Source: Bacteroidia bacterium (GTDB lineage: Bacteria; Bacteroidota; Bacteroidia; SpSt-205). From it: 53,865 nt of DNA. The notes beneath the pieces are model-generated. The model saw nothing but the letters and a program-made list of their open reading frames with translations, searched no databases and had not been told where the DNA came from. The stretch spans positions 1 through 53,865 of the forward strand of contig JANXAJ010000011.1 of NCBI GenBank assembly GCA_025062295.1, given 5' to 3'. Below, one piece after another: positions 24,325-26,858 of the stretch; position 1 is the stretch's first letter, and the number at the start of each line of letters is the position of its first letter. The position numbers were made by a program, and so were the translations under genes.

Positions 24325-25362
24325 CTAAAACCTCTTGAGAGGAGTAGAATCAGCGGCAAACCCCTCAGCCTCCTTAGTGAGATAGATTCTTGGTAGTCTT
24401 TCTAGCAAGCGATGAAGCTCATCAGGCGTGTTTGCCTCCATAAGAAGAAGGCGCAGCTTCTTCGCACTGGGCAAGCCGCGGAAATAGCCAGCATAGTGCC
24501 GCCGCAGAGTCAGCACTATGCCTCGGGGAGATTCGGGAAGAAGGCGAAGCGCATATCTCAAGTGCTTCTCAATCGCATAAATCCGCTCCTCTAAAGAAGG
24601 AGGAGGAAGGAACTGGCCTGTCTGAAAGTAATGCTTTATCTCCCGAAAAATCCATGGATATCCAATTGCGGCTCTGCCTATCATGAGAGCATCAGGCTTA
24701 TAGAGGTGGTAGAGTGTCCATGCCTTCTGAGGAGAGTCAATATCTCCATTCCCGATGATGGGGATATGAATAGAGGATTGGGCTTTTAGGAGCCCGATCC
24801 ATTCCCAACGGGCTTCACCTGAGTAGCCGTCGGCTCGGGTGCGGGCATGCACTGTTAGAGCAGCGATACCTACTCGCTGAAGCCGCTCAGCCACTTCCAG
24901 AATCCGAATTTGTGAAGCATCCCACCCCAGCCTGGTCTTGACTGTAACAGGAAGAGAGGTGGATTTGACCACTTCCGACGTCAGATACTCCATACGGTCA
25001 ATGTCCCGAAGAATCCCGGCACCGGCCCCCTGACATACCACTTTCGTTACAGGACAACCGTAATTGATATCTACCCAATCTGGATTGACTTTCTCAATCA
25101 GCCGGGCTGCCTCCCGCATTGACTCTGCTTCTCCTCCGAAAATCTGAATCCCTACTGGGCGCTCCTCATCCCAAACTTGGGCTTTCCACCAGCTTTTTTC
25201 TACGCCTCGGATAAGAGCCTCACTGGAGATAAACTCCGTCACTACGGCGTCAGCTCCCATTTCTCGGCACAGACGACGAAAAGCCGCATCGCTCACATCC
25301 TCCATCGGAGCTAAAAAGAGAGGCGGTACCCTGCCTTTCCACTCCACTCGTCCTATCCGCAC
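24325..25362 (-). CDS. dusB: tRNA-dihydrouridine synthase
   Basis: A 345-residue flavoenzyme that reduces uridines in tRNA D-loops. The FMN barrel starts with PPLFLAPMEDVSDAAFRRLC. The catalytic Cys is in DINYGCPVTKVVCQGAGAGIL, and VTVKTRLGWD, LTVHARTRADGY and IIGNGDIDSPQ follow. The C-terminal helical tRNA-binding part begins near 245. The family could be DusA, B or C; the motifs and length fit DusB best. The start is GTG, with TATATTTG 4 nt upstream, so the mRNA is predicted to be leaderless. It is monocistronic and divergent from cysS across 20 bp. Confidence 0.93.
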   Translation of the reverse strand: MRIGRVEWKGRVPPLFLAPMEDVSDAAFRRLCREMGADAVVTEFISSEALIRGVEKSWWKAQVWDEERPVGIQIFGGEAESMREAARLIEKVNPDWVDINYGCPVTKVVCQGAGAGILRDIDRMEYLTSEVVKSTSLPVTVKTRLGWDASQIRILEVAERLQRVGIAALTVHARTRADGYSGEARWEWIGLLKAQSSIHIPIIGNGDIDSPQKAWTLYHLYKPDALMIGRAAIGYPWIFREIKHYFQTGQFLPPPSLEERIYAIEKHLRYALRLLPESPRGIVLTLRRHYAGYFRGLPSAKKLRLLLMEANTPDELHRLLERLPRIYLTKEAEGFAADSTPLKRF

Positions 25363-25364
25363 TT

Positions 25365-25380
25365 AGCAAATATATTTGCT
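25365..25380. promoter_or_regulatory. Perfect palindrome forming mirror-image -7 elements for dusB and cysS
   Basis: The 16-bp sequence AGCAAATATATTTGCT is its own reverse complement. Each strand reads TATATTTG, an exact TAnnTTTG: 25371-25378 on plus, 25374-25367 on minus. Each ends exactly 4 nt before a GTG start codon (25383 and 25362). The two elements share the central TATA, so only one polymerase can bind at a time. Confidence 0.75.
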
Positions 25381-25382
25381 GC

Positions 25383-26858
25383 GTGCCGCTCACTCTGTAC
25401 AACACTCTAACCCGCCAAAAAGAACCCTTTGCCCCTCTCAACCCTCCATATGTCGGCATGTATGTCTGCGGCCCTACCGTTTATGGAGACCCTCACCTTG
25501 GTCACGCCAGAGCCGCTATCACTTTCGATGTTCTGTATCGGTACCTCCGCTACTTAGGGTATAGGGTACGATATGTACGCAATATCACGGATGTAGGACA
25601 CTTAGAGGGAGATACAGACGAGGGAGAAGATAAAATCCTCAAAAGAGCTCGGCTGGAGCGAATAGAGCCAATAGAAGTAGCTCAGAAATATACAGCCTTG
25701 TACCACAAGGCCATGGATGCTCTCAATGTACTGCGTCCATCCATTGAACCCACAGCCACTGGGCATATCCCCCAACAGATAGCGATGATTCAGCGAATCT
25801 TGGAACAAGGATATGCGTATGTAGTGAATGGGTCTGTGTATTTGGATGTGGAAAAGTATCGGCAGGACTATCCCTACGGCATTTTATCGGGCAGAAACAT
25901 AGAAGAACTGTTGGCAGGCAGCCGGGAATTAGAGGGACAAGGAGAGAAAAAACATCCGTGGGATTTTGCTCTCTGGAAGCGAGCAGAGCCAACTCATCTA
26001 ATGCAATGGGACTCTCCATGGGGACGAGGATACCCCGGCTGGCACATAGAATGTTCCGCCATGAGCATCCACTATTTAGGTGTTCCTTTTGATATCCATG
26101 GGGGCGGTTTAGATCTCATTTTTCCTCACCATGAAGCCGAAATTGCCCAGGCTCATGCCTGCTTTGGGAAGGAGGCTCACTATCAAGCCCGATTTTGGAT
26201 ACATAACAATCTGGTAACAATAGAGGGACAAAAAATGAGCAAATCTCTCGGAAACTACATTACAGTTGAAGAAGTCTTCACTGGATCTCATCCGCGTTTA
26301 GTTCAAGGGTATCCCCCTATGGCGCTGCGCTTCCTTGTGCTCCAAGCCCACTATCGTAGTACTCTTGACTTCTCTAATGAGGCTCTGCGCGGCGCCTATC
26401 GGGCTTATCTCCGCCTTATGAATGCCTATCATCGCCTCCTGCAGGTGCGTCCCCATGCTTACTCTACTTATATGGTGAGCAGCTGGCGCGAGCGAGTCTT
26501 TGCGGCTCTGGATGATGACCTCAATACAGCTGCGGCTTTAGCTTTATTCTTTCAACAAGCGGATGACATCATCAAGCTCTACCGAGGGGAACTCCTTCTT
26601 TCCCAAGTGGATTTAGAGCTTCTCCTCAAGACATGGCAGGAAGTTTTATTTGAGATTTTAGGACTTCTTCCGCTTCAATCGGTTGAGTGGGAACGCTGGC
26701 AGCGGTTAGTCCAGCTCACCGTTCGGCTGCGGCAGCAGGCTCGCGCAGAGAAAAACTTCGCCTTAGCTGACTGTCTCCGAGATGAGCTTCAGCGAGTAGG
26801 CGTAAAGCTTTTGGATTTTCCAGACGAGACCCTGTGGGAAGTAGGCGAAAGGGCCTAA
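25383..26858 (+). CDS. cysS: Cysteine--tRNA ligase
   Basis: A 491-residue class I synthetase for tRNA-Cys. The HIGH motif is H-L-G-H (38-41) in GPTVYGDPHLGHARA, with a zinc Cys at 29. Further zinc ligands lie in GWHIECSAM and PHHEAEIAQ, and KMSKSLGN is the KMSKS loop. The C-terminal helical anticodon domain is complete. The GTG start is placed by the promoter box 4 nt upstream and by the expected N-terminus (LTLYNTLTRQKEPF). It heads a seven-gene plus-strand operon that ends at 34797. Confidence 0.97.
   Translation: MPLTLYNTLTRQKEPFAPLNPPYVGMYVCGPTVYGDPHLGHARAAITFDVLYRYLRYLGYRVRYVRNITDVGHLEGDTDEGEDKILKRARLERIEPIEVAQKYTALYHKAMDALNVLRPSIEPTATGHIPQQIAMIQRILEQGYAYVVNGSVYLDVEKYRQDYPYGILSGRNIEELLAGSRELEGQGEKKHPWDFALWKRAEPTHLMQWDSPWGRGYPGWHIECSAMSIHYLGVPFDIHGGGLDLIFPHHEAEIAQAHACFGKEAHYQARFWIHNNLVTIEGQKMSKSLGNYITVEEVFTGSHPRLVQGYPPMALRFLVLQAHYRSTLDFSNEALRGAYRAYLRLMNAYHRLLQVRPHAYSTYMVSSWRERVFAALDDDLNTAAALALFFQQADDIIKLYRGELLLSQVDLELLLKTWQEVLFEILGLLPLQSVEWERWQRLVQLTVRLRQQARAEKNFALADCLRDELQRVGVKLLDFPDETLWEVGERA

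Follow-up and report, generated by a model that had tools for sequence, protein, structure and literature searches.

The dusB-cysS intergenic region

The window (the whole stretch of DNA analyzed, 53,865 nt, from a Bacteroidia bacterium) carries two divergent genes, dusB and cysS, whose start codons are only 20 bp apart. The first-pass annotation had named both genes, and both names were borne out by NCBIfam models above their cut-offs. It had also described a perfect 16-bp palindrome in the gap, composed of two box copies with a TATA in common, each copy lying 4 nt from a GTG. Direct reading of the sequence agreed on all these points. The features are as follows.

24325-25362, minus strand: dusB, tRNA dihydrouridine synthase; GTG start at 25362-25360; TIGR00737 above the NCBIfam cut-off
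25383-26858, plus strand: cysS, cysteine--tRNA ligase; GTG start at 25383-25385; TIGR00435 above the NCBIfam cut-off
25363-25382, no strand: dusB-cysS intergenic gap from start codon to start codon, 20 bp, read directly; equal to the whole putative bidirectional promoter
25365-25380, no strand: 16-bp perfect palindrome AGCAAATATATTTGCT; conserved only in its inner 12 bp (25367-25378)
25367-25374, minus strand: predicted -7 box TATATTTG of dusB, ending 4 nt before the dusB GTG
25371-25378, plus strand: predicted -7 box TATATTTG of cysS, ending 4 nt before the cysS GTG
25371-25374, no strand: TATA common to both boxes; by enumeration of overlaps, the consensus permits none larger
25362, minus strand: predicted transcription start of dusB, the first base of its GTG, placed by the 4-5 nt spacing of F. 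johnsoniae (PMC6847099)
25383, plus strand: predicted transcription start of cysS, the first base of its GTG, placed likewise (PMC6847099), 21 bp from the dusB start

The primary sigma factor of Bacteroidota recognizes TAnnTTTG as its -7 box. The box occupies -12 to -5 in Flavobacterium johnsoniae, where RNA starts 4-5 nt downstream of it (PMC6847099). The consensus was matched exactly on both strands of the gap, and the 12-bp core of the palindrome, CAAATATATTTG, is two such boxes superimposed. A single match to RpoD region 3 was found in the genome of the window, in a 300-aa open frame with a short N-terminus, and we take this RpoD-like protein to be of the Bacteroidota type. A -33 TTTG element was not found upstream of 91 leaderless promoters taken together, nor at dusB/cysS; this element is also weak in F. 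johnsoniae (PMC6847099).

Symmetry of the palindrome

Perfect 16-bp palindromes are ordinary as such. The window has one, against about 0.8 expected, and 454 kb of this genome have eight, against 6.9 expected. Unlike its mere existence, the sequence content and location of this palindrome are not ordinary. By exact-match search, both the 16-mer AGCAAATATATTTGCT and its core CAAATATATTTG were found at a single site in the 2.05-Mb genome, and the core appeared in none of 100 dinucleotide shuffles of the window.

Enumeration showed that a minus-strand CAAAnnTA followed by a plus-strand TAnnTTTG can overlap by only 2 bp (CAAAnnTAnnTTTG) or 4 bp. For the 4-bp overlap of back-to-back boxes, CAAATATATTTG is the sole possible sequence. 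The 12-bp dyad is there because the densest packing of two consensus boxes forces symmetry, and it is therefore no sign of a dimeric regulator. The nn of both boxes is TA, which is not the commonest choice in this genome but is expected if the overlap forced it.

The exact form of the arrangement, with 4 nt on both sides, was present in one of the 395 genomes of a class scan, namely this one, and the form with 4 and 5 nt was found only in G002 and G003 among 198 genomes (a draw without G005). Elsewhere in the genus there were two more copies of CAAATATATTTG, one within a long ORF of G009 (L114) and one between two minus-strand ORFs of G010 (L116). We rejected both as the same arrangement, as neither sits between divergent starts.

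Leaderless genes in the genome and the family

We surveyed 454 kb of this genome in stretches, containing 365 ORFs of at least 100 aa that were called by length only. The figures on leaderless genes are motif positions combined with simple ORF calling in the window and in sampled stretches (including L118-L157 and L178-L187), not RNA. TAnnTTTG ended 4 nt upstream of a candidate start in 38 cases and 5 nt upstream in 20; for control words, these 58 cases were matched by 0-1. The peak at 4 and 5 nt recurred in a genus member, G006 (39 and 26 cases), and in a further genome from the family, G011 (9 and 9). Overall, 16-20% of ORFs in this genus and family had the box 4-5 nt before the start; the corresponding range for five other Bacteroidia and the same-order genome G012 was 0-7.5% (small samples). 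Among the heads of divergent gene pairs in G000 (this genome), G006 and G011, 44-46% had a box at 3-8 nt. A box at a fixed distance from start codons genome-wide, the mark of leaderless genes, was thus observed. The starts in the 88 cases of the first count were ATG in 66, GTG in 18 and TTG in four; with 18 of 88 being GTG, this codon is no obstacle to a leaderless-type arrangement.

TAnnTTTG also showed a second, smaller peak 7 nt upstream of starts, with 13 cases in G000 and fewer (6) in G006; it is possibly a short-leader class or a product of wrongly called starts. A small peak at 25 nt in G006 was discarded as a separate class, because most of it came from measuring these leaderless boxes against a second, in-frame start further downstream.

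Because of the peak at 4-5 nt and the 44% of divergent heads with a box, leaderless transcription is probably a habit of this family, unusual for Bacteroidota. Leaderless transcripts account for 5.5% in F. psychrophilum (PMC9723704), about 3.7% of 5′ UTRs are under 10 nt in B. thetaiotaomicron (PMC7366714), and leaders of 10 nt or less occur in 13% of predicted transcripts of F. johnsoniae (PMC6847099). A thermophilic Bacteroidota family would thus have leaderless genes on a large scale, compared with about 4-6% in mapped species of the phylum. Our literature search, which covered few subscription papers, found no paper describing a Bacteroidota family with large-scale use of leaderless genes.

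Conservation in the genus

The comparison covered ten genus members that have cysS. Among named genomes, the nearest relatives are the Bacteroidia MAGs KatS3mg025, KatS3mg026, SKYB95, SKW77 and SKYB87, which presumably came from hot springs, as read from their isolate names. Three members (G002, G003 and G005) keep CAAATATATTTG in a gap of 21 bp, with a spacing of 4 nt to cysS and 5 nt to dusB. The equal spacing that had been claimed is therefore exact in this genome (4 and 4 nt) but not in its sister species. The core is identical in all four genomes, and the outer AG/CT is not kept; the complete flank, which makes the dyad 16 bp, was found in this genome alone among the genus members compared.

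In G006, G008 and G010 (gaps of 35, 45 and 54 bp) the genes are still divergent but have two separate boxes; dusB starts with ATG and has its own box at 4-7 nt. In G009 (gap of 42 bp) only TA is common to both boxes, CAAACCTATCTTTG, and dusB lies 24 nt away. In G007, dusB is located elsewhere in the genome, with TACCTTTA 6 nt before its ATG, and in G004, which is listed as 98% complete, no dusB was detected. The cysS box was kept in these last two genomes, which lack the dusB-cysS neighborhood (4 nt in G004 and 5 nt in G007), so that all 10 members have it at 4-5 nt, with or without an adjoining dusB. The dusB box is less constant, with distances of 4, 5, 7 and 24 nt and the variant of G007. 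The ATG/GTG exchange at a conserved position supports the dusB start. Conservation of the palindrome among relatives had been set in advance as a test. The palindrome was gone in four relatives whose genes remain divergent, but the predicted promoters persisted.

Among the four genomes with the overlap, pairwise identity at 4-fold sites was 29-39%, and only 23 of 262 such sites were the same in all four, which means that synonymous sites are saturated. Twelve consecutive identical bases at this divergence point to selection. Selection on the core needs no switch, as each gene requires one half; the CAAA half, of use to dusB alone, does not differ among the four species. Each of the three CysS+DusB trees placed the four genomes in one group (support 60/98, 92/99 and 85/98, below the starred level). 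This suggests that the overlap arose once, with gain and loss indistinguishable in these unrooted trees.

Other gene pairs with common boxes

In the sample of this genome, 14 divergent pairs had boxes on both sides within 150 bp, and only those of dusB/cysS overlapped. The next-smallest gaps among these pairs were 32, 37 and 38 bp. The form with a 2-bp overlap occurred 38 times in the genus, compared with 12 for the reversed control; many of the 38 matches lie inside ORFs and are probably due to chance. Some of the cases join two genes. A second minimal case occurs in G008 (L251, C3:249331-251344, about 997-1018), where 22 bp containing CAAAGGTAGCTTTG, with a central TA in common, separate the gene of a methyltransferase from that of a polysaccharide flippase-like protein; both GTG starts are 4 nt from the box. 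In G004 (L245, C1:133844-135857, about 995-1021), a tRNA-methyltransferase-like gene (Methyltransf_4) and an M16 peptidase gene are 27 bp apart and share the TA of CAAATCTACTTTTG. In G002 and G005, the TA-sharing form joins a purK-like ATP-grasp gene to a small ORF.

A probable bidirectional promoter and its alternatives

We consider it very probable that the two back-to-back -7 boxes form a bidirectional promoter from which both mRNAs are leaderless, with no regulatory coupling needed. Two boxes of the primary sigma factor would lie back to back with the maximum overlap that the consensus permits, 4 bp, and RNA polymerase would load on the common element in one orientation at a time. Transcription would begin at each GTG or no more than one base from it, with the two starts 21 bp apart, so that both messages would be translated without leaders. 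The arrangement would then be the extreme end of the compact leaderless divergent gene pairs of this family. Dependence of each gene on a box of its own would keep the overlap in place, and no coupling between DusB and CysS is assumed. The two superimposed, probably leaderless promoters of the first-pass annotation are supported by the known -7 box, by the genome-wide spacing and by the 12-bp core kept in three sister species.

The same annotation had proposed a reciprocal switch, in which competition between orientations, regulated or strong, sets the DusB:CysS ratio and couples charging with modification. If this were true, the choice made by the polymerase would itself couple cysteine-tRNA charging to tRNA modification. 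With starts 21 bp apart, the geometry bars simultaneous occupancy if both promoters work, and mutual steric exclusion of polymerases is likely. However, given the usual size of a promoter-bound polymerase, exclusion would also apply at gaps of 30-50 bp and hence to many pairs in the genome, so that it would not be special to dusB/cysS. The overlap has also been kept in four species at saturated divergence, but the need of each gene for its box explains this retention. Furthermore, the overlap is confined to one clade, the boxes are separate in relatives, two relatives lack the neighborhood (one of them without any detected dusB), and common boxes also join unrelated genes. DusB and CysS are housekeeping enzymes with no known reciprocal need, and no activator site was recognized in the 20-bp gap. 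Competition has been seen at E. coli bidirectional promoters under strong activation of one direction. At five such promoters, however, basal activity was too low for competition, and repression occurred only if the other direction was strongly activated (PMC12825309). We therefore rejected the switch as the leading account and regard it as improbable; it is equally improbable that the overlap was retained since a single initiation element fixes the ratio of the two enzymes by the orientation choice of the polymerase.

Another explanation is that the gap drives transcription of cysS alone, with a coincidental match on the dusB side and dusB expressed from elsewhere. The exact cysS box in all 10 members, as against the variable dusB box, would fit this. 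However, dusB has a separate box at 4-7 nt in G006, G008 and G010, and the half of the core that serves dusB alone does not vary among the four species with the overlap, although their synonymous sites are saturated. Since the gap ends at the cysS start codon, a dusB promoter anywhere else would have to fall inside cysS. We consider this explanation highly improbable. An operator of a dimeric regulator controlling both genes, which had also been put forward, is hardly credible: its one attraction is the perfect dyad centered in a divergent gap, but a dyad inevitably results when two consensus boxes overlap in this way, the 16-mer and the 12-mer have no second copy in the genome by exact-match search (further sites are usual, not obligatory), the outer pairs are not conserved, no palindrome is left where the boxes of relatives separate, and neither gene encodes a regulator, so that it was rejected on conservation and uniqueness.

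Comparison with known promoters

The putative bidirectional promoter resembles the mapped primary-sigma promoters of Bacteroidota (PMC6847099, PMC9723704, PMC7366714) in its box, in the 4-5 nt spacing to the (here predicted) start and in the RpoD type. The mapped promoters mostly produce leaders, with a median of 24-32 nt, whereas in the dusB/cysS gap the start codons lie at the predicted RNA starts and two boxes are superimposed. The leaderless genes of Actinobacteria and Deinococcus-Thermus are similar in that, across much of the genome, a promoter box lies a short, constant distance from the start codon, although their signal is a Pribnow-like TA box rather than TAnnTTTG (PMC3160421). That survey reported leaderless genes in one of 37 Bacteroidetes/Chlorobi genomes, and it did not look for TAnnTTTG.

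Bacterial bidirectional promoters have a near-symmetric core, flanked within a few bases on each side by starts on opposite strands, and two polymerase orientations, and the dusB/cysS gap would be alike in these respects. The core elements of both strands overlap here, with the TATA in common, which is what defines such promoters. Elsewhere their divergent starts, mapped on both strands, are 7-25 bp apart; 21 bp is predicted here. The bidirectional promoters of E. coli and Salmonella have a TATAAT-like -10 element in common, and their starts are mostly 18 bp apart (Warman et al. 2021, as cited in PMC10268837 and PMC12825309). According to the same accounts, -11 and -7 reciprocally coincide in this register, which is not obligatory, 10 and 23 bp also being common in E. 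coli (PMC10268837, PMC12825309). The dusB/cysS gap departs from the 18-bp register with its 21 bp, as predicted from the sequence and the F. johnsoniae spacing, and it differs in having two TAnnTTTG boxes that overlap by 4 bp and predicted leaderless mRNAs. We found no paper on common -7 boxes in Bacteroidota in a literature search that covered few subscription papers. The gap would show how short a divergent promoter may get, with 20 bp between the start codons, and it follows a clear packing rule: back-to-back TAnnTTTG boxes overlap by 2 or 4 bp only, the latter case being CAAATATATTTG. The dusB/cysS gap is of a known kind, the bidirectional promoter, with another sigma box, another spacing and predicted leaderless products.
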